Shown: positions 29,649-53,229 of the stretch, one piece after another
How the letters are laid out: the number at the start of each line of letters is the position of its first letter
Numbering within the stretch: the first letter of the stretch is position 1
Assembly: GCA_025057975.1 (NCBI GenBank)
Contig: JANWUV010000002.1
Coordinates: 186,001 to 250,000, forward strand
DNA: 64,000 nucleotides
Direction: 5' to 3'
From: Chloracidobacterium sp.
Lineage (GTDB): Bacteria > Acidobacteriota > Blastocatellia > Chloracidobacteriales > Chloracidobacteriaceae
Made by a program: the position numbers and the translations under genes
The notes under the pieces: model-generated
What the model was told of the DNA's origin: nothing
The model's database searches: none
The model's input: the letters and a program-made list of their open reading frames with translations, nothing else

Positions 29649-31805
29649 ATGTATGTCAAGCAAACGATTCAGATTGGTGGGAGGAGCTTATCGCTCGAAA
29701 CAGGCAAAATCGCTCGGCAAGCCGACGGCGCTGTGATGGTGACCTGTGGTGAAACGGTGGTGCTGGTGACAGCCGTCGCCGCTAAAGAACCAAGCGCGCG
29801 CGGCTTCTTTCCGCTGACAGTGGATTATCGGGAATATGGTTACGCTTCTGGCCGGATTCCGGGCGGTTACTTCAAACGAGAAGGTCGGCCGACCGAACGG
29901 GAGATTCTGACGTGTCGGTTGATTGATCGCCCGCTCCGGCCGCTGTTTACAGACGGCTTCGACTGCGAGACACAGATCATCGCGCTGGTGATGTCGGCTG
30001 ATAAGCACAACGATCCCGACGTACTCGCCATTACCGGCGCGTCGGCGGCGCTCTACATTTCGGACATTCCGTTTGAGACGCCAATTGCAGGCGTCCGGGT
30101 CGGGTTGGTGGATGGTAAGCTCGTCATCAACCCCACATATCAAGAAGTGCGCGCGTCGAGCCTAAACCTGACTGTCGCCGGCAGCGAAGAAGCAATTGTG
30201 ATGGTCGAGGCGAGCGCAAAGGAAGTCAGTGAGGAGATCATCATCGAAGCGCTGCTTTTTGGTCACAACGAAATCAAACGGCTCTGCGCCTTCCAGCACG
30301 ATTTGCGCGCCAAGGTCGGCAAGCCAAAGCGTAAGGTGACGCCGGTGGTCTTGGATGAAGCCATCCTACAGGCTGTCGCCGCTGAGTATACAGAACGCCT
30401 GCGGGCGGCCCTCGACGTACGCGGACGCAGCAAGTTGACGAGCTACGCCGAACTCGATGCCCTGGAAAAGGAAGTTGTTGAGCGATACCCGGCTGACAAT
30501 CCTGACCAGCGCGCGATGGCGAAGCGCGTCTTTGAGCATTTGAAAGAGAAGATTTTCCGCGAGGACATTCTACTCAATCGTCGGCGTCCCGACGGACGCA
30601 AGTTCTCGGAGATTCGCCCGATTGAGATTGAGGTCGGCGTGTTGCCGCGCGCTCATGGGAGTGCGCTATTTACGCGCGGTGAAACGCAGGCGATTGTCAC
30701 GGCGACACTGGGCACAAGCCAAGATGTGCAGTACTTGGACGATTTGGAAGTGGGCGAAATCAAGCGCGATTTCATGCTCAACTATAACTTCCTACCGTTC
30801 AGTGTGGGTGAGATCGGGCGAATGGGAAGCCCTGGACGGCGTGAGGTCGGTCATGGCGCGTTGGCGCATCGGGCGTTGCAGGCGGTGTTGCCGACTGACG
30901 ACTTTCCCTACGTTACGCGCGTTGTGTCGGACATTACGGAATCCAATGGGTCATCCTCGATGGCGACGGTGTGCGGCGGGGCGTTGGCGCTGATGGACGC
31001 CGGCGTGCCGATCAAAGCGCCCGTCGCGGGAGTGGCGATGGGGTTGGTGATGGACGACAAGCGGTACGCCGTCCTGACCGACATCGCCGGCGCGGAAGAC
31101 CACTACGGTGACATGGATTTCAAGGTGGCTGGCACGCGCCACGGTGTTACAGCCTTGCAGATGGACATCAAGGTGAAGGGCCTCAACGCGCAAATCTTGG
31201 CTGACGCCCTTCAGCAGGCCAAGCAGGGGCGACTGTACATTCTGGACAAGATGCAGGCCGTACTGCCGGCACCGCGTCCGCAAATCAATCCGTTGGCGCC
31301 GCGCATTCTGACGTTCCAAATCCCGGTCGCCAAGATTCGGGATGTCATTGGCACGGGCGGCAAGGTGATCCGTGGGATTGTGGAAAAGACTGGCTGTAAG
31401 ATTGACATTGAGGATTCCGGGCGCGTCATAATCGCCGCTTCTGATCAGGAAGCTGGTCGGCGGGCGCAGGCGATGATCGAAGCCATCACTGAAGAGGCCG
31501 AGCCGGGGAAGACCTATCTTGGCACAGTGACGCGCATCGCCGAGTTCGGGGCGTTTGTCGAAATTTTCCCCGGCACGGAAGGGTTGCTCCACATTTCCGA
31601 AATCGCCAACTACCGTGTCCGGTCGGTCGCCGACGAGCTGAAGGAAGGTCAGCAGTTGATGGTGAAGTGCCTGAGTACGGATCCGAGCGGCAAGATTCGG
31701 CTCAGTCGGCGCGCTTTGCTCGAGGAGGAAGCCTCTACTCAAGGCAGCTCGGAGCGTCCGGCCGGCCCGGAGCGCGACAATGACCGCCGACCACGCCGCC
31801 GCTAG
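29649..31805 (+). CDS. pnp: Polyribonucleotide nucleotidyltransferase (PNPase)
   Basis: A 3'-5' phosphorolytic exoribonuclease and degradosome component. The 718 residues hold two RNase PH-like cores (the second with [28 protein letters not shown] and the active-site region [20 protein letters not shown]), a KH domain with [15 protein letters not shown], and an S1 domain with [28 protein letters not shown]. The 229 bases between rpsO and pnp can form a CTTTTGG/CCAAAAG hairpin and a 12-base palindrome AGGAAGCTTCCT, which could be processing sites like those in the E. coli pnp leader (inference). Confidence 0.98.
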
Positions 31806-45164: not shown

Positions 45165-45776
45165 ATGCTTCCCCACTATGCTATGCGCCAGTCACTGCCT
45201 CAGCGCCGTCTGAGCGCCAAGCTCATACCGCTTGAACTAGGGCCGACGGCGCGCGTGACTGTTGCGCTTGGTTTGATGGTTGCGCTGCAAACCATCCTCG
45301 TCCGCCTGCCGCGTATCGGCTTTCTGTTTGAGTATGTAGATTTCGTCCTCATTTTGACGGTCTTCGTCGGTGTTCAAACTAAGGCGCTGCGAGCCGCGCT
45401 GGTAGGTCTAACAGGCGGGTTGTTGCAGGACTTGCTGTGGGGTGTGCTGTATGGCGCCAGCGGCTTTACGAAAACGCTCATTGGCTACACGCTGGCCGTA
45501 GTGAGCATGAAGTTCTCCCTGGACAGCCGCATGACGCGCCTGCTGGTGTTGCCGCTGGCTTCGGTCGTCAACACTGGTCTTTTCGCCTTCTTCCTGTACT
45601 TTTTCTCGATTTTGCCGCCGGAAACGACGTTTCGGGAAATCGTCCGCGTCGGTATGCTCGCTCTACTTGGAAACAGTCTCGCCGGCTTGGTACTCTTCCC
45701 GGCAGGCGACCGCTGGTTGGGTAAGTGGATCGCCGTGCGCAGCACCGACGAGCCAATCGCTCCACGCGCATTCTAA
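45165..45776 (+). CDS. mreD: Rod-shape-determining protein MreD
   Basis: A 203-residue integral membrane protein with about five or six helices, found between MreC and PBP2. The ATG at 45165 gives MLPHYAMRQS; the frame is open much further upstream, inside mreC, but that part reads as nonsense. Typical features are LPRIGFLFEYVDFVLILTVF and GLTGGLLQDLLWGVLYGASGFTKTLIGY, matching the conserved GFxxGLxxD motif region of MreD. Confidence 0.92.
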   Translation: MLPHYAMRQSLPQRRLSAKLIPLELGPTARVTVALGLMVALQTILVRLPRIGFLFEYVDFVLILTVFVGVQTKALRAALVGLTGGLLQDLLWGVLYGASGFTKTLIGYTLAVVSMKFSLDSRMTRLLVLPLASVVNTGLFAFFLYFFSILPPETTFREIVRVGMLALLGNSLAGLVLFPAGDRWLGKWIAVRSTDEPIAPRAF

Positions 45777-45804
45777 CGTACCGGGAGCGCGCCGCCTGTT
45801 TGTT

Positions 45805-47760
45805 ATGACGCCGCGCTTTACACCCTCTGGGCCGCCGCCTGCCTTCAATCCACGCCTCCGCCTGTTGGCGCTGCAAGTCGGCGTCGTAGCGGCTTTCGTC
45901 GTGCTGGCGCTGCGCCTGTGGAGCATGCAGGTCGTCCATCATGAAAGCTACGTCAAGCAGGCTGAAAACAACCGTGAACGTCGAATTCCGATTGTCGCCC
46001 CGCGCGGCAACATCCTCGACCGGCACGGAAACGTTCTGGTGGACAGTCGGCCGACGTTCAGCCTGATGGTCAATCGTGAGGACATCCAAGACGAAGAAGA
46101 AACCCTGCGGATTCTGAAGGAAGAATTCGGCGTGTCGCCGGAGTATGCCCGCCAACAACTCCGCTCGCCGGCCGCCAAAATCCGCCCAGTTGAGATGAAG
46201 TCCAACATCAGCGACGCCGACCGGGCGAAGGTCGCCGTCCTCGACTATGAACACCCGGAGTTTCTGGTTGAGTTGCGTCCGCAGCGCAAGTACCCGCACG
46301 GTGAACTGGCCTGTCACGTTCTAGGGTACGTAACGGAAGTTAGTGAGGCGCAGCTCAAGCGGCCGGAGTTTGACTATTGCCGGCCGGGCGACAAGGTAGG
46401 GCAGGCGGGGTTGGAGCGCTTCTACAACCGGATTTTGATGGGACGCGACGGCTACCGGCGCATCATTGTGGACAGCCGTGGGCGCTTCGTGCGGGAGATC
46501 GAAACTGTTCCCCCTGTACCGGGGCAGGACATCGTGACGACGCTAGACATTGACCTTCAGCGCGTGGCGGAAGCGCGCCTGAAGGCGCTTAAGTTGAACG
46601 GGACGATTGTCGTGATGGACCCGCGCAACGGTGAAATATTGGCGCTGGCTTCGATGCCCGGCTACGACCCCAACCTCTTCGCGGCCGGGATTTCGCGCGC
46701 CGACTACGCGCGCTACGCCAACGACAAGCACAAGCCGCTGCGCAACCGTGCCATTCAGGACATTTACCCGCCTGGCTCTACGTGGAAAATCATCATGGCG
46801 GTCGCCGCCATGCGCGCTGGCGTACTCAAGCCAACGGATCGGTTTTTGTGCGGCGGCGGCATCAACGTCGGCGGTCGGCATGTGCGCTGCATGGGCAGCC
46901 ATGGGACGCCGCCACTGGCCCAGGCCATTGCCAAGTCCTGCGACGGCTGGTTTTACCGGCTGGGTATCAAGCTGGGGCTGGACAACTTGCGGAAGTACGC
47001 CTCGGAACTGGGGGCTGGCGAGTATACCGGTGTGGATTTGCCGAATGAGTTCAAGGGATATATTCCGAGTTTAGAACTCAAGGCCGCCACCGTCCGGCGC
47101 ACGATGCCAAACGCGACGCCGGCGCAGTATCGCTGGACGGACGCCGATTCCGTCTACGCCTCCATTGGGCAGGCGATGGTCCGCCCGACGCCGCTGCAAA
47201 TGCTGCGGTCGGTGGCTGGCATCGCCATGCGTGGTGAGTTTCATACGCCGCATTTCCTGTTAGAAGCGCGTCCGACGCAGGATGCGCCGCGTGTAACGTT
47301 CAACGACCAGGTCAAGCGCATTGAGCTGCCCGATGAATGCTGGGACGCTGTGATTGAAGGCATGTGGGGCGCTGTTAACGCCGGTGGGACGGCGGCGCGG
47401 TCGGCGATCCGCGATCCGGAAACCGGTTTTGAAATGTGCGGCAAAACGGGCACGGCGCAGGTGGTCAGCAAGCTCAAGGCGTCCAAGCTCGAAGAACGCG
47501 ACCATTCGTGGTTTGTCGGTTTTGGCCCACGCAATAACCCCGAAATCGCCGCCATTTCGTTGGTGGAGCACGGCGGCTTCGGAGCCAAAGTCTCCGCTCC
47601 AAACGTCAAGGCGGTGTTCGAAGCGTGGTTGAGAAAGAAGAAAGGGCTGCCGGTGGTGGTCGAATCATTCATTGAGCCGCCCATTGAGCCGCCGCCGACA
47701 GCGCGGCGCGCGCCGCCGCCTAACCACCAACCTACAACTAAGCCCACAAACAACCCCTGA
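45805..47760 (+). CDS. mrdA: Penicillin-binding protein 2 (elongasome transpeptidase)
   Basis: A class B penicillin-binding protein that cross-links peptidoglycan during elongation. The 651 residues hold an N-terminal membrane helix (about 25-45), the dimerisation domain (APRGNILDRHGNVLVDSRPTFSL), and a transpeptidase domain with S325-T-W-K328 (in PPGSTWK), S378-C-D380 and K547-T-G-T. The canonical SxxK lysine and KTG are intact. The ATG at 45805 is chosen; the upstream frame overlaps mreD. A Pro/Thr-rich tail ends the protein. rodA starts inside its stop codon. Confidence 0.95.
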   Translation: MTPRFTPSGPPPAFNPRLRLLALQVGVVAAFVVLALRLWSMQVVHHESYVKQAENNRERRIPIVAPRGNILDRHGNVLVDSRPTFSLMVNREDIQDEEETLRILKEEFGVSPEYARQQLRSPAAKIRPVEMKSNISDADRAKVAVLDYEHPEFLVELRPQRKYPHGELACHVLGYVTEVSEAQLKRPEFDYCRPGDKVGQAGLERFYNRILMGRDGYRRIIVDSRGRFVREIETVPPVPGQDIVTTLDIDLQRVAEARLKALKLNGTIVVMDPRNGEILALASMPGYDPNLFAAGISRADYARYANDKHKPLRNRAIQDIYPPGSTWKIIMAVAAMRAGVLKPTDRFLCGGGINVGGRHVRCMGSHGTPPLAQAIAKSCDGWFYRLGIKLGLDNLRKYASELGAGEYTGVDLPNEFKGYIPSLELKAATVRRTMPNATPAQYRWTDADSVYASIGQAMVRPTPLQMLRSVAGIAMRGEFHTPHFLLEARPTQDAPRVTFNDQVKRIELPDECWDAVIEGMWGAVNAGGTAARSAIRDPETGFEMCGKTGTAQVVSKLKASKLEERDHSWFVGFGPRNNPEIAAISLVEHGGFGAKVSAPNVKAVFEAWLRKKKGLPVVVESFIEPPIEPPPTARRAPPPNHQPTTKPTNNP

Positions 47761-48914
47761 TGAACACAATGCAAGAGCGTCGGTGGCGTGATTTTGATTG
47801 GTCATTACTGGCGGCGGTCACGCTGTTGTGTACGGTGAGCATCGTCACCCTCTACAGCACGAACGCCGCGCCCGGCGGTGCGACAGAGTGGCATCAGAAG
47901 TTCTGGTTCAAACAGTTGGTGTGGTGTGGGATTGGCTACGCCGCCTTCTTCTGGGTGTCCCGTGTGAGCTTTCAACGGGTCTTTGACGCCGCACCGTATG
48001 TCTATGCGGTCACCATTCTGCTGCTCATCATTGTTCTCTTCGTCGGCGTGAAGATTAACGGTCAGCGGTGTTGGATTCGTCTAGGGCCGCTGGGTACAAT
48101 TCAGCCTTCGGAGTTCGCCAAGTTAGGAACAATTTTGCTGGCGGCGCGCATCCTGCGCCCTCTTGGGCCCGACGGCGTAACGTGGCGGCAACTGGCGTTG
48201 GTGCTGGGCGTAGTTTTGCTGCCAGTGGGGTTGATTCTCAAACAGCCTGACGCAGGGACGGCGCTCACGTTTTTCCCGCCTGTCGCCGTCCTAATCTTCT
48301 TGAGTGGGATCGCTGTGCGGTGGCTTGTCGCGGCGGCGACGGCTGGACTCGTTCTTGGCCCGCTGCTGTTTGTGTTCGTGCTGGAGCCGCGTCTCAAACA
48401 GTACCAACGCGACCGCATCAACGTGACGTGGAACGCGATTTTCCATCCGGAACGGCTTCAGGATCGCCAAACGCGCGAGGGGTTTGGGTATCAAACGCTG
48501 CAATCCATGATCGCCGTCGGATCGGGCGGCGTTCTAGGGAAAGGTTTTCGGGGCGGGACGCAAAGCCAAGGTGGATTCGTCCCAGAGCATCACTCGGATT
48601 TCATCGCCTCTGTGATTGCTGAAGAATTTGGATTGGTAGGGTCTCTAGGTGTTCTTGCGCTGCTTCTTTTTGTCATACTACACTCTGCCAGCGTTGCGGG
48701 ACGTTCACGAGAACGATTTGCAATGCTCGTCCTCGCCGGCTGCATGGCGCTTCTGGCGTTTCATGTCATCATCAATTTCGGCATGGTGGTTGGTCTTGTC
48801 CCGATCATGGGCATCCCTCTGCCGCTGTTGAGCGCCGGCGGTTCGTCGTTGTTGATGACATTCGTGAGCTTGGGCCTAGTGGCGAACGTGTACGGCAGGC
48901 GCTTCTCCAATTGA
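47760..48914 (+). CDS. rodA: Peptidoglycan glycosyltransferase RodA (SEDS family)
   Basis: A SEDS-family enzyme that polymerises lipid II into glycan strands with PBP2. The 384 residues contain about ten membrane helices, with motifs INGQRCWIRLGPLGTIQPSEFAKLGTILLAARIL, LILKQPDAGTALTF, FVPEHHSDFIASVIAEEFGLVG (the catalytic aspartate region), and the C-terminal GIPLPLLSAGGSSLLMTFVSLGLVANV. The ATG overlaps the mrdA stop (TGATG), which fits translational coupling in the elongasome operon. Confidence 0.96.
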   Translation: MNTMQERRWRDFDWSLLAAVTLLCTVSIVTLYSTNAAPGGATEWHQKFWFKQLVWCGIGYAAFFWVSRVSFQRVFDAAPYVYAVTILLLIIVLFVGVKINGQRCWIRLGPLGTIQPSEFAKLGTILLAARILRPLGPDGVTWRQLALVLGVVLLPVGLILKQPDAGTALTFFPPVAVLIFLSGIAVRWLVAAATAGLVLGPLLFVFVLEPRLKQYQRDRINVTWNAIFHPERLQDRQTREGFGYQTLQSMIAVGSGGVLGKGFRGGTQSQGGFVPEHHSDFIASVIAEEFGLVGSLGVLALLLFVILHSASVAGRSRERFAMLVLAGCMALLAFHVIINFGMVVGLVPIMGIPLPLLSAGGSSLLMTFVSLGLVANVYGRRFSN

Positions 48915-49278
48915 AACGCCTCCCACGAAATTCGGTGACGAGACATAAAAGTTTTGGTTTCCATACGCCTTGCCAATTCCTCGCGCCGGCGCTTAGACGC
49001 CTGTACCGGCGACGGTTGGTTTCGCCAGCGCCCGAAGATGGCAAGTCAACGCTTAGGTGTTTTTGATCGCGTCCGTCTTTGGCCTCATACGCTGCGGGTC
49101 TCGTGGTCATCCTGCACGCAAATCTGTGGTCGCGTGGCGCAGCCACTCCGGAGAAGGTGACGCGCCGGTGTTTGTTAGCTTCGGCAATGCTGCCGAGGCG
49201 GCTGGCGTGACCTGCCGGCTCTGGCGTGGGTTCACCCGCCGGCCCCCGTCGGAAAATTCCTGAGGAACAGCTCCGCAT
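48915..49278 (+). other. Gene-free leader region before the RNase E/G gene
   Basis: 364 bases without a supported gene. It contains a clean 8-base hairpin, CTTCGGCA (49179-49186) with TGCCGAGG (49191-49198), and a GCCGG/CCGGC pair near 48986-49010. A GAGGA box precedes the ATG at 49279 at a rather long distance. In E. coli the rne gene has a 361-base leader that mediates its own decay; the similar length here invites comparison but no sequence match is claimed. Confidence 0.35.
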
Positions 49279-52161
49279 ATGAACAAGGAAATGATCATCA
49301 GCGTCAATGCGTACGAAAAGCGCGTGGCGATTCTGGAAGACGGTGTCGTGGTCGAGTTTTACGTTGAGCGGGCCGATGAATCAAAAGCCGTGGTAGGAAA
49401 TATCTACAAGGGGAAGGTCCGCAAAGTGCTACCGGGTATGCAGTCCGCCTTCGTAGATATTGGCTTGGAACGCGACGCCTTCCTCTATGTCGGCGATTTC
49501 TTCGAAGAAACCGAAGAAGACTTGGACCTGATAGAAAGCAGCGGCCATGCCCGTCCCGAACGGGTGGAGCGCACCGAACGCCAACCCGAACCGCCGCGCC
49601 GCGAGGCCGAAGGTCGCCGCGCTGACCGCGAACGTCCGGCGGAAGCGACGCCTGAACGTCAGCCGACGGTCGAGTTTGCCGACCGGACAACGACGACCTC
49701 GAAAACACCGGAGGCGGCCTCAACTCTGTCTCCACTTGAGAGAGTCAGCGACGACGAACCGTCGGCGGCGACACTTGCTCAGCACCCAGTGGTAGATACT
49801 CCTCTGTTATCGTCCATGCTAGGCGCGACGGCCGAGCCAAGGTTTGAACGAGTCAGCGACGAGTTGGAAGATAAACCACTCCACGCTGAGGCGCATGCGC
49901 CGGTCGGCGAACAAGCGCCCCCGGAGAAGGGTGTGGCGGCGGTTGATGAACGTTCCGGCGGCGACACTTTAGAGCTTGAGCGTGAAGCCTTGGCCGAGTC
50001 GCTTGAAGCCGGCGCACAGCGCGAGCGACGCCGCACCCGACGGAAGGAAGTCATCGGCGAGGAGAAAAAGAAGTCTTCGCGCCGCCGGAGCAAGAAAGTC
50101 GAAGCGGAAGTTGAGGCGCTCATCGCCGACGTTGAGCCGCCGTCGTCGCCGCCTGTCGTTGAGACGCCGTTTGAGCGCGCCCGCGATGAAGACTTGGATG
50201 AAGAAGCGGGCGACCTACTCAAGGACGCGCTCATCCAGCAAAAAATCATCGTCCAGACCCGAATTGAAGAAATTGCGACCAACCCGGAGGCGCCAGTCGC
50301 CGAGACAGTGGAGACGGAAGCGCGCGTTGAACCGACTCTTGAGCCGCTGACGTTAGGCTATGAACGCATCACGGACGACGATGAAGCGGCGGCCGGCGAC
50401 CGTCCGCCTGTGACACCGCCGGCCGCCACAGGAATTGAAGCCGCCACAGAAATCGAGTCGGCTGACGAGCCGACGGCGGGCGGCGACGGTTCTACGCCCA
50501 CCACTGCCTTGGAAGAGGAGACGCCAAACGGCGACGCCCAACTTCAGGTGCGTCCTCCGCAGGCGGAGTTCCCGACGCGGCGCGGGCGGCGCGGGCGGCG
50601 GCGGAGCGGCCGCAGCGCTGCTGCGACGGGCGACGAAACGGCGGAACTTGACGACCGCAGCGACACGCCGGAAGAGAGCGGTGCAGGCGTCACGGCGTCG
50701 AGTGCGACACTCAAAACCGAGCTGGCGCGCATGACTGAAAACGGCGATGGTACCGCCACTGCGGCATCGCTGCCGAGCGCCGTTGGTGACCTTCCAGTCG
50801 GCGCGGAGTCGCCGACGCCGGACGAAGGTCAGGCGACGATTGAGCCGCGTGGAACCCGTTCCTCCACACGTTCGTTGGGGCGCGACGAGCCACGCAAGGA
50901 TGACCGCCGCGAGCCTGATCTTCCACGCCGCCAACCGCCAATTACTGAGCTGCTGCGGGAAGGTCAGGAAATCATTGTCCAGATTGCCAAGGAGCCGATT
51001 GGCCTCAAGGGCGCGCGGATCACGTCATACATCTCGCTGCCCGGACGTTACCTCGTCTACATGCCGACGATTAATCACATTGGCGTCTCCCGCAAAATCT
51101 CGACCGAACAGGAACGGGCGCGTTTGAAGCGAATCATGACCATGCTTCGTGAGCGGGAAGGCATTAGCGGCGGGTTTATCGTGCGGACGGCATGCGAAGG
51201 GCGGTCAGAGCAAGACCTCTGCGACGACATGCTGTATCTGGCACGAACATGGCGGGACATTCGCCGCCGGGCGGAGCAGTCGCGCGCCGGCACGGTGCTG
51301 TGCCGTGAATTGGATCTGGTGCAGCGCCTGTTACGCGATCACATGTCGAGCGACTTTTCAGTCATTCGGGTGGACGACCCCGGCGAGTACGCCAACATCG
51401 TGGATTTCATCAACCGCTTCCAACCCAAGTTGGTGGATCGCGTCCGGCTTTACACACGGAATCGTCCGATTTTTGAGGAGTACAACATTCAGCAGGAAAT
51501 CGAAGCCGCTCTCAAACCGCGCGTCTGGCTTAAGTCGGGCGGGTTCATTGTCATCAACCAGACGGAGGCGTTGGTCGCCATTGACGTCAACACCGGCAAG
51601 TTCGTAGGGAAATCCAATCGTCTGGAAGACACCATCACGCGGACAAACCTTGAAGCTGCCGTTGAAATTGTCCGGCAGATTCGACTGCGCGATCTGGGCG
51701 GCATCATCGTGCTGGACTTCATTGACATGGAAGACCGCCGCAACCGGCAGAAGGTCATGCAGGTGCTGGAGCAGGCGATGAAGGCTGACCGTTCACCCTC
51801 CAAGATTACCTCGTTCAACGACTTTGGGCTGGTGGCAATCACTCGCAAGCGGGTGCGCCAGAGCTTGGAGCGGATCTTGAGCGAACCATGCCATTACTGC
51901 GGCGGCAGTGGCATGGTTAAATCCGCTCAAACAATGTGTTATGAGATTCTGTCTGACGCAAAGCATCTGGCTAAGGAACGCGCTGCGTCGGGACAGGCTT
52001 TTAGTGAAGTGACGCTGCGCGTCAGTCCGCAGGTGGCTGAGATGCTGCGTGGGCCGGAGTCGCGCGTGCTGCGGGAGATTGAGTTCAACTTTGGGACGCC
52101 CGTCACGCTGCACAGCGATCCGCACATCCATCAAGAACGATTCGACTTTGCATTTATGTGA
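49279..52161 (+). CDS. Ribonuclease E/G with a large insertion in the S1 domain
   Basis: A 960-residue endoribonuclease of the RNase E/G family for mRNA decay and rRNA processing. The S1 domain begins normally (VVGNIYKGKVRKVLPGMQSAFVDIGLERDAFLYVGD) and resumes near residue 553 (ITELLREGQEIIVQIAKEPIGLKGARITSYISL). The roughly 470 residues between are charged and low-complexity, rich in Glu, Arg, Thr and Pro. The catalytic core has LVAIDVNTG (Asp near 769) and IIVLDFIDMED (Asp near 813), and the zinc-link is CHYCGGSG near 871. The C-terminal degradosome arm of E. coli RNase E is absent; the disordered part has been moved inside the S1 domain. Confidence 0.93.
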   Translation: MNKEMIISVNAYEKRVAILEDGVVVEFYVERADESKAVVGNIYKGKVRKVLPGMQSAFVDIGLERDAFLYVGDFFEETEEDLDLIESSGHARPERVERTERQPEPPRREAEGRRADRERPAEATPERQPTVEFADRTTTTSKTPEAASTLSPLERVSDDEPSAATLAQHPVVDTPLLSSMLGATAEPRFERVSDELEDKPLHAEAHAPVGEQAPPEKGVAAVDERSGGDTLELEREALAESLEAGAQRERRRTRRKEVIGEEKKKSSRRRSKKVEAEVEALIADVEPPSSPPVVETPFERARDEDLDEEAGDLLKDALIQQKIIVQTRIEEIATNPEAPVAETVETEARVEPTLEPLTLGYERITDDDEAAAGDRPPVTPPAATGIEAATEIESADEPTAGGDGSTPTTALEEETPNGDAQLQVRPPQAEFPTRRGRRGRRRSGRSAAATGDETAELDDRSDTPEESGAGVTASSATLKTELARMTENGDGTATAASLPSAVGDLPVGAESPTPDEGQATIEPRGTRSSTRSLGRDEPRKDDRREPDLPRRQPPITELLREGQEIIVQIAKEPIGLKGARITSYISLPGRYLVYMPTINHIGVSRKISTEQERARLKRIMTMLREREGISGGFIVRTACEGRSEQDLCDDMLYLARTWRDIRRRAEQSRAGTVLCRELDLVQRLLRDHMSSDFSVIRVDDPGEYANIVDFINRFQPKLVDRVRLYTRNRPIFEEYNIQQEIEAALKPRVWLKSGGFIVINQTEALVAIDVNTGKFVGKSNRLEDTITRTNLEAAVEIVRQIRLRDLGGIIVLDFIDMEDRRNRQKVMQVLEQAMKADRSPSKITSFNDFGLVAITRKRVRQSLERILSEPCHYCGGSGMVKSAQTMCYEILSDAKHLAKERAASGQAFSEVTLRVSPQVAEMLRGPESRVLREIEFNFGTPVTLHSDPHIHQERFDFAFM

Positions 52162-52251: not shown

Positions 52252-53229
52252 GTGACCGAGCAACCAATTACGAACTTTATCAAGCATCATTTTCGTCATT
52301 TCAATGCGGCGGCGTTAGCGGAGGCCGCCGAGGCTTACCGGCGGCATCTGGCGGCAGGGGGAAAGATGATGATCACGCTGGCCGGCGCAATGAGTACAGC
52401 CGAGTTAGGCCTTTCTCTCGCCGAAATGATTCGGCAGGACAAAGTTCATGCGATTTCCTGCACCGGTGCGAACTTGGAGGAAGACGTCTTCAACCTGGTA
52501 GCGCATAAGTTTTACGAGCGCATTCCGCACTACCGCGACTTGACACCTCAGGACGAAAAGGCGTTGTTGGACCGGCGTCTCAACCGTGTCACCGACACTT
52601 GCATTCCCGAAGGCGAGGCGATGCGCCGGATTGAGTCGTTCATTCTCGAAGAGTGGATAGCCTCGGATGCGCGCGGGGAACGGCTCTTCCCACACGAGTT
52701 TTTCTGGCGGATTCTCGACAATCCCAAACTTCAAGCCTGCTACCAGATTGATCCCAAGGACAGTTGGCTGCTAGCGGCAAAGGAGAAAAAGCTGCCGATA
52801 TTTGTGCCGGGCTGGGAGGATTCAACGCTGGGCAATATGTACGCCGGACACTGCATCAGCGGTGAAATCAAAAACGTCCACACCGTCCGCACCGGCATTG
52901 AGTACATGATTGAGCTGGCCGACTGGTACACGGAAGCAAGCGCAACAGCTTCGATTGGATTCTTCCAGATTGGCGGCGGCATTGCGGGAGATTTCCCCAT
53001 TTGCGTCGTACCGATGCTGCATCAAGATTTACGGCGGGAAAACGTGCCAGTCTGGGGGTATTTCTGTCAGATTAGCGATTCAACCACATCGTACGGGTCT
53101 TACTCCGGAGCCGTGCCGAACGAGAAGATCACGTGGGGTAAGCTGGGCGTCGAGACGCCGAAGTTCATCATCGAGTCAGACGCCTCGATTGTTGCGCCGC
53201 TGGTGTTTGCCTACGTTTTGGGCTGGTAA
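52252..53229 (+). CDS. Deoxyhypusine synthase-like protein
   Basis: A 325-residue member of the deoxyhypusine synthase family, which transfers the aminobutyl group of spermidine by an NAD-dependent reaction. Motifs are GKMMITLAGAMSTAELG, the NAD site SCTGANLEEDVFN, PIFVPGWEDSTLGNM, GFFQIGGGIAGDFPI, and ITWGKLG with the presumed catalytic Lys297. Bacteria lack eIF5A, so bacterial members probably make homospermidine or act on other amines; the true substrate is unknown. The GTG start at 52252 has GGAGG about nine bases upstream. It follows the RNase E/G gene after 90 bases. Confidence 0.87.
   Translation: MTEQPITNFIKHHFRHFNAAALAEAAEAYRRHLAAGGKMMITLAGAMSTAELGLSLAEMIRQDKVHAISCTGANLEEDVFNLVAHKFYERIPHYRDLTPQDEKALLDRRLNRVTDTCIPEGEAMRRIESFILEEWIASDARGERLFPHEFFWRILDNPKLQACYQIDPKDSWLLAAKEKKLPIFVPGWEDSTLGNMYAGHCISGEIKNVHTVRTGIEYMIELADWYTEASATASIGFFQIGGGIAGDFPICVVPMLHQDLRRENVPVWGYFCQISDSTTSYGSYSGAVPNEKITWGKLGVETPKFIIESDASIVAPLVFAYVLGW

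Follow-up and report, generated by a model that had tools for sequence, protein, structure and literature searches.

In the usual teaching, RNase E consists of a catalytic head to which a scaffold is joined at the C-terminus. A Chloracidobacterium gene of the same family raises the question of what several hundred residues, lodged inside the S1 domain and predicted to be disordered, could be doing in an enzyme that has no such tail. The gene lies in the window, by which we mean the whole stretch of 64,000 nucleotides analysed here. An earlier note on this DNA had suggested that the segment might be a degradosome scaffold moved from the C-terminus into an S1 loop. The gene and its main parts are as follows, in window coordinates.

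49279..52161, + strand: Rne/Rng family ribonuclease of RNase G type, 960 aa (open frame, profile scores)
49279..49512, + strand: N-terminal end and beginning of the S1 domain, residues 1-78 (matches RNase E of E. coli and Caulobacter until residue 73)
49513..50934, + strand: S1-loop insert, residues ~79-552, predicted disordered (alignment, AlphaFold2, hydropathy-charge)
50935..51042, + strand: continuation of the S1 domain (PPITELLREGQE...), residues 553 to ~588 (alignment)
51034..51855, + strand: PF10150 catalytic region, residues 586-859 (Pfam; invariant D769, N771, D813, R636, T637)
51886..52146, + strand: PF20833 thioredoxin-like C-terminal domain, residues 870-956, with no tail beyond (Pfam)

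The frame is open from end to end, and its product is the only PF10150 protein found by a profile search of the organism's own genome. PF10150 scores 337.8 bits (cut-off 25.5), TIGR00757 476.4 bits (cut-off 325.95) and PF20833 29.7 bits (cut-off 26.8). The best-scoring NCBIfam equivalog is RNase G (PRK11712), which is aligned to its last position but at 488.4 does not reach its curated cut-off of 594. The C-terminal PF20833 domain and this top equivalog lead us to name the enzyme RNase G type, and the score below the cut-off keeps us from calling it RNase G. Its position by RodA and PBP2 is a further likeness to RNase G (Rng/CafA), whereas the Pseudomonadota loci that we compared have loops of 3-19 residues at the place of the insert. 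A fold search with the 960-residue protein ranks E. coli RNase E first, and the matches at E<=0.001 comprise RNase E structures plus FAU-1/RNase W; their low TM-scores are due to the disordered arm. Across an alignment of 43 sequences D769, N771, D813, R636, T637, C871 and C874 are invariant. We take these to be the metal-binding or catalytic, 5'-sensor and zinc-link residues, and on that basis the protein should be active as an enzyme. As the earlier note had observed, the C-terminus is short: in 54 Blastocatellia proteins the chain stops 0-4 residues beyond the conserved C-terminal domain, without extension.

The upstream neighbours are shared with many relatives.

45667..48914, + strand: PBP2 (mrdA) and RodA (TIGR03423 and TIGR02210 over cut-off)

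Of 31 loci examined, 23 have RodA upstream of rng and 18 have PBP2 there, some loci being too short to tell; in four Blastocatellia loci (L207, L211, L213, L214) RodA was not found despite at least 3.5 kb of upstream sequence. The E. coli rng gene also adjoins rod-shape genes. The gap between rodA and rng (48915-49278) measures 364 bases, and 361-407 bases in three relatives. It has no Rfam match and its conservation over four sequences is modest, and we dropped a regulatory RNA as a candidate, although a long leader serving autoregulation could lie there. The gene that follows rng (52252-53229) resembles the deoxyhypusine/homospermidine synthase group, below every family cut-off.

When compared with RNase E of E. 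coli and Caulobacter, the protein aligns as far as residue 73 and again from 548-552, and this gap sets the insert at approximately residues 79-552, about 474 residues. It takes the place of chain positions 73-86 in the E. coli enzyme (6g63) and 94-160 in the Caulobacter enzyme (4oxp). Its limits agree to within a few bases with the 49515-50940 given earlier. The elements recognised within it are listed here.

49735..49758, + strand: motif copy 1, LERVSDDE, residues 153-160 (pattern; not conserved within the genus)
49798..49815, + strand: TPLLSS island, residues 174-179 (short AlphaFold2 helix 175-181)
49843..49866, + strand: motif copy 2, FERVSDEL, residues 189-196 (pattern, genus comparison)
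49966..50040, + strand: predicted helix 230-254, acidic then Arg-rich (AlphaFold2)
50065..50097, + strand: basic patch KKKSSRRRSKK, residues 263-273 (patch scan, genus comparison)
50170..50193, + strand: motif copy 3, FERARDED, residues 298-305, start of the module (pattern, module HMM)
50194..50280, + strand: module helix, AlphaFold2 306-334 (AlphaFold2, module HMM)
50206-50271, + strand: conserved core of the module helix, AGDLLKDALIQQKIIVQTRIEE, residues 310-331 (core pattern in 50/54 inserts)
50359..50382, + strand: motif copy 4, YERITDDD, residues 361-368 (pattern, genus comparison)
50578..50604, + strand: basic patch RRGRRGRRR, residues 434-442 (patch scan, genus comparison)

Predicted disorder dominates the segment. 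AlphaFold2 gives the catalytic part mostly block pLDDT values of at least 90 and the insert mostly values below 50 (96-229, 257-271, 284-306, 338-522 and 524-545). Helices are predicted at 80-88, 175-181, 230-254, 273-282 and 306-334, with block means of 72-78 for 230-254 and 85-90 for 306-334. The input alignment held 43 sequences, of which five (the window protein and L059-L062) have the long insert. A second model, of L062 (21 sequences), is of low overall quality (mean pLDDT 54, pTM 0.32); it places the module helix at 324-350 with block means of 64-87 and lends it weak backing. By mean hydropathy and net charge, all 54 inserts class as disordered and none of the 54 catalytic parts does; charged residues make up 36% of the window insert and a median of 37.5% over the 54. 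The disorder claimed in the earlier note is thus borne out by prediction. A folded domain filling the insert, the outcome that would have spoken against it, was rejected: no Pfam family exceeds its cut-off there, the fold-search matches at E<=0.001 are the RNase E and FAU-1/RNase W structures already named, and AlphaFold2 offers isolated helices only. Anchoring to the membrane, which the note had also entertained, fared less well, as a simple helical-moment scan (18-residue windows) saw no amphipathic membrane-targeting helix in the insert. Its highest moments fall in Arg-rich stretches, and the module helix has a moment of 0.17.

The comparison across Acidobacteriota that had been suggested shows long inserts throughout the class. 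All 58 genomes considered (our own and its relatives) have a match, and 54 yield a complete insert, of 246-542 residues; G013, G033, G043 and G054, in which the gene is split or cut, do not enter the insert counts. More broadly, PF10150 matches occur in 96 of 98 genomes of the class, at one place each; the exception is G033, whose gene lies in two pieces. Frames of at least 748 aa are present in 92 of these 96 genes, and the four shorter ones (G033, G043, G122, G144) are, by their coordinates, apparently split or cut at contig ends. The open frame was seen in genomes of 41 genera, in some of them in two contigs. Within the genus it is whole in seven genomes at near-saturated synonymous divergence, with a pN/pS of 0.38-0.55 in the insert against 0.05-0.07 in the catalytic part, the insert showing islands of identity amid weak average constraint. 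The whole frames in the genus and the class, together with this protein-level selection, exclude a frameshift or assembly error. The nearest named records (L059-L061) carry the titles Blastocatellia and Chloracidobacterium, among the best 80 of 143 matches from one scan with the window protein, which also supplied the named loci. Two records titled Actinomycetota (L062) and Acidimicrobiia (L071) have RNase E/G proteins that group with Acidobacteriota and are probably mislabelled or mixed bins.

A short motif, [hydrophobic]-E/Q-R-I/V-x-D-D/E, recurs in these inserts. It occurs 95 times, in 50 of the 54 Blastocatellia inserts and at least twice in 36, compared with 2.5 +/- 1.6 copies in shuffled inserts (maximum 7 in 200 shuffles). 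The pattern was written after inspecting 13 inserts; the other 41, which served as an unseen set, hold 60 copies, with one or more in 37. The catalytic parts of the same proteins (21,944 residues) contain none, and a loose form of the motif is absent from the window's frames of at least 200 aa outside rng. When the genome was scanned with a strict DNA form (F-E-R-I/V-x-D-D/E), a single further match turned up, antisense to a long frame that by our reading resembles an acyl-CoA synthetase. We took this lone match as chance and, from the strict form in the genome and the loose one in the window's frames, rejected the idea that other proteins share the motif.

One motif copy is followed by the module helix, whose core, similar to G-E-L-L-K-D-A-x-x-Q-E-x-I, is recognised by pattern in all inserts but L151, L155, L173 and L177, a different four from those without the motif. 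The module begins anywhere between positions 84 and 310 of the insert. An HMM of the module, built on 26 sequences belonging to families f3, f4 and f7, was run against 28 held-out inserts and recovered 24 with E<0.01. These include 13/13 of f1 and f2; the sole f6 insert was missed, as were three of the six from f8. Among 1520 shuffles the best reached 0.13. Trained on other families, the HMM matches the window insert at E 5.4e-16. The weak matches of L151, L173 and L177 rest on the motif without the helix, and none of 22 inserts of at least 60 aa from outside Blastocatellia was matched. Basic patches are present in 54/54 Blastocatellia inserts, against 4.8 in shuffles (maximum 11 in 100 shuffles). 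The TPLL island is more local: eight of the 54 have it, namely the inserts from the genus plus a single other from family f1. The Blastocatellia sequences are related and such counts overstate the independent evidence; the strongest tests are the held-out HMM and the motif control in the catalytic parts.

How did this architecture arise? In a quick tree of 86 catalytic parts drawn from 198 loci (insert excluded, SH-aLRT support only, long branches flagged), all loops of at least 105 residues fall in one clade (SH-aLRT 95), which unites Blastocatellia, family f16 and seven rows with loops of 105-236 residues; rows outside it have S1 loops of 5-85 residues. The window enzyme is placed in the RNase G branch, where relatives with short S1 loops also have no C-terminal tail. 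A separate clade (SH-aLRT 100) holds the RNase E-like proteins that have a C-terminal tail, 159-303 residues long. The proposed relocation is therefore unsupported, since the short-looped relatives have no tail to move and the tailed proteins stand apart; nor is the host an RNase E that lost its tail, being of RNase G type instead. Six RNase E-like proteins of other Acidobacteriota (L191, L193-L197) have tails in this size range with Arg runs, and those of L196 (HWWRR) and L197 (LWWVR) end near a WW pair.

Family f16 filled the loop differently. Its loops measure 454-698 residues in four rows, with one row cut. The five inserts of this type (L139-L142 and L080, record fen_180; one cut) are without the Blastocatellia motif and have a motif of their own, PGES-L/I-x-K/R (LPGESLSKYR), with nine copies against 0.002 in shuffles, which is absent from all 54 Blastocatellia inserts. 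Arg-rich patches also occur in the f16-type inserts. In a phylum-wide sample, 53 of 60 genomes have a match: inserts of at least 100 residues occur in 17, tails of at least 150 residues in eight (for G082 and G094 the tail was estimated from the length of the frame), neither in 28 and both in none. The exclusivity of insert and tail gives a one-sided Fisher p of 0.034, from a hand count and uncorrected for relatedness, and we attach little weight to the two as alternatives.

On balance, we consider it somewhat more likely than not that within one Acidobacteriota clade the S1 loop has grown into an internal scaffold for RNA binding and partner docking. Under this proposal, a loop that faces the RNA site in known structures would have expanded into an arm of some 470 disordered residues. 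Its basic patches may hold RNA near the active site, while the ERVxDD motif and the adjoining helix may dock one or more partner proteins, so that a tail-less RNase G would gain from the arm what RNase E has in its C-terminal tail. The scaffold part of the earlier interpretation can thus be kept as an inference, consistent with the class-wide motif, the helix island, the basic patches and the lack of a folded domain, without the relocation. Against it count the four inserts without the motif and the four others without the helix core, the first motif copy that is not conserved in the genus, and the weak average constraint. Furthermore, such a scaffold is not a requirement, as 28 of the 53 Acidobacteriota genomes have an RNase G-type enzyme with a short loop and no tail.

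Candidate partners, by analogy and gene neighbourhood, would be RNase J, PNPase and a DEAD-box helicase. RNase J exceeds its cut-off in 35 of 39 relatives and RNase Y in none of them; a strong but partial RNase Y match in G013 (327-aa frame, E 2.5e-88) comes from an assembly 87% complete and 5% contaminated. In both genomes of family f5 that were examined, and in that family alone, the RNase J gene lies directly 3' of rng on the same strand, after gaps of ~115 and 56 bases, a hint that the two enzymes work together.

L208 6113-7750 and L215 5975-7612, counted on the rng strand: RNase J after rng in f5 (neighbourhood)

PNPase, which the earlier note had named as a possible partner, is encoded at 29649-31805 of the window, 18 kb from rng, a distance that we do not count as a sign of binding. 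Three DEAD-domain matches at E<=1e-20 are present in the genome.

Inserts in the S1 loop are known as a kind, since passages of PMC4245959 describe them in alphaproteobacterial and plant RNase E as stretches of ~50-150 aa, charged and predicted to be disordered. Like the Caulobacter example (4oxp) and those of other alphaproteobacteria and plants, the insert studied here occupies the same S1 loop and is charged, predicted disordered and partly helical. It differs in its length, in its host, an RNase G-type enzyme that carries no C-terminal scaffold of its own, and in its class-specific repeated motif and module. The same passages report that RhlB binds a Caulobacter RNase E fragment holding the S1 insert.

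Compared with the C-terminal scaffolds of RNase E from E. coli, Pseudomonas aeruginosa and Caulobacter, the arm likewise combines long disorder with short conserved motifs, basic patches of RNA-binding type and a helical element. By contrast, it sits inside the S1 domain, shows no membrane-targeting helix and is not followed by a disordered region after the catalytic domain; the likeness shown is one of architecture rather than of sequence. In the P. aeruginosa tail, according to passages of PMC11964227, Arg-rich motifs bind RNA and one of them binds RhlB. Together with RhlB binding to the Caulobacter fragment and the charge patches of alphaproteobacterial RNase E (PMC12691583), this tail supplies the analogy behind the proposed RNA binding and docking. 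As far as we searched, the several-hundred-residue length, the tail-less RNase G-type host and the class-specific repeated motifs are new within open-access full texts, although the classification by Ait-Bara and Carpousis (2015) may list such proteins. No open-access full text was found for Chloracidobacterium together with RNase E, and a search for RNase E, S1 domain and Acidobacteri* yielded, by title, only a Burkholderia survey.

Other readings deserve weighing. The arm might instead act in cis as a gate, an acidic, partly helical element folding over the enzyme's own S1 RNA site to control substrate access. The Caulobacter insert shares this site; according to passages of PMC4245959, its helix takes up the place of RNA in the E. 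coli structure, and its acidic residues may mimic RNA. The acidic end of the motif and the confidently predicted module helix would also suit a gate. Nonetheless, the length of these inserts far exceeds what a gate would need, the module's place in the arm varies, and the basic patches are conserved to the same degree as the acidic ones. We regard the gate as unlikely. Decidedly unlikely is an arm that needs no specific partners and serves mainly to drive BR-body-like condensates through its charge blocks and its binding of RNA. Charge patches drive alphaproteobacterial RNase E condensates, according to passages of PMC12691583, and charge blocks are stronger than the shuffle mean in all seven inserts tested (z 1.8-7.7), including the window insert (z 2.7, yet the largest of 300 shuffles lies above its observed value). 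Condensation has no need of a motif and helix whose order is preserved across the class, and it may add to the scaffold rather than replace it. Indeed, both the gate and the condensate may hold together with a scaffold.

The insert might also be a mostly neutral loop that grows quickly at a permissive site, its conserved pieces being incidental; its high pN/pS and its widely varying length and sequence would fit. However, the motif, module and basic patches lie far above shuffles, an HMM from other families finds them, and all 54 complete inserts are long; chiefly because of the held-out HMM test we judge this very improbable. An assembly error, frameshift or intervening element, for which we found no point in favour, has a negligible chance given the open frame across genera and the selection at protein level.

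A broader claim can be stated tentatively, though we lean slightly against it: that a degradosome is built on an RNase G-type enzyme through an S1-loop scaffold carrying ERVxDD and a helix, that f16 filled the same loop with LPGESLSKYR, and that the S1 loop, which adjoins the path by which RNA enters, is a second evolutionary site for scaffolds besides the tail. The last point would follow from the different repeated motif that f16, a member of the same clade, has in its loop.

In plain terms, the main RNA-cutting enzyme of one class of Acidobacteriota has within its RNA-binding domain a very long floppy stretch in which short motifs recur and are conserved. This stretch probably holds RNA and partner proteins, a role that in E. 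coli RNase E falls to the tail, elsewhere in the protein. RNA decay in this phylum seems little studied, and the recurring motif and helix provide a concrete bait for finding partners. If the proposal is true, the scaffold would lie beside the RNA path of each subunit in the Blastocatellia lineage. More generally, if a scaffold does sit in the S1 domain of an RNase G-type enzyme, degradosomes would have arisen at different places of one enzyme family.
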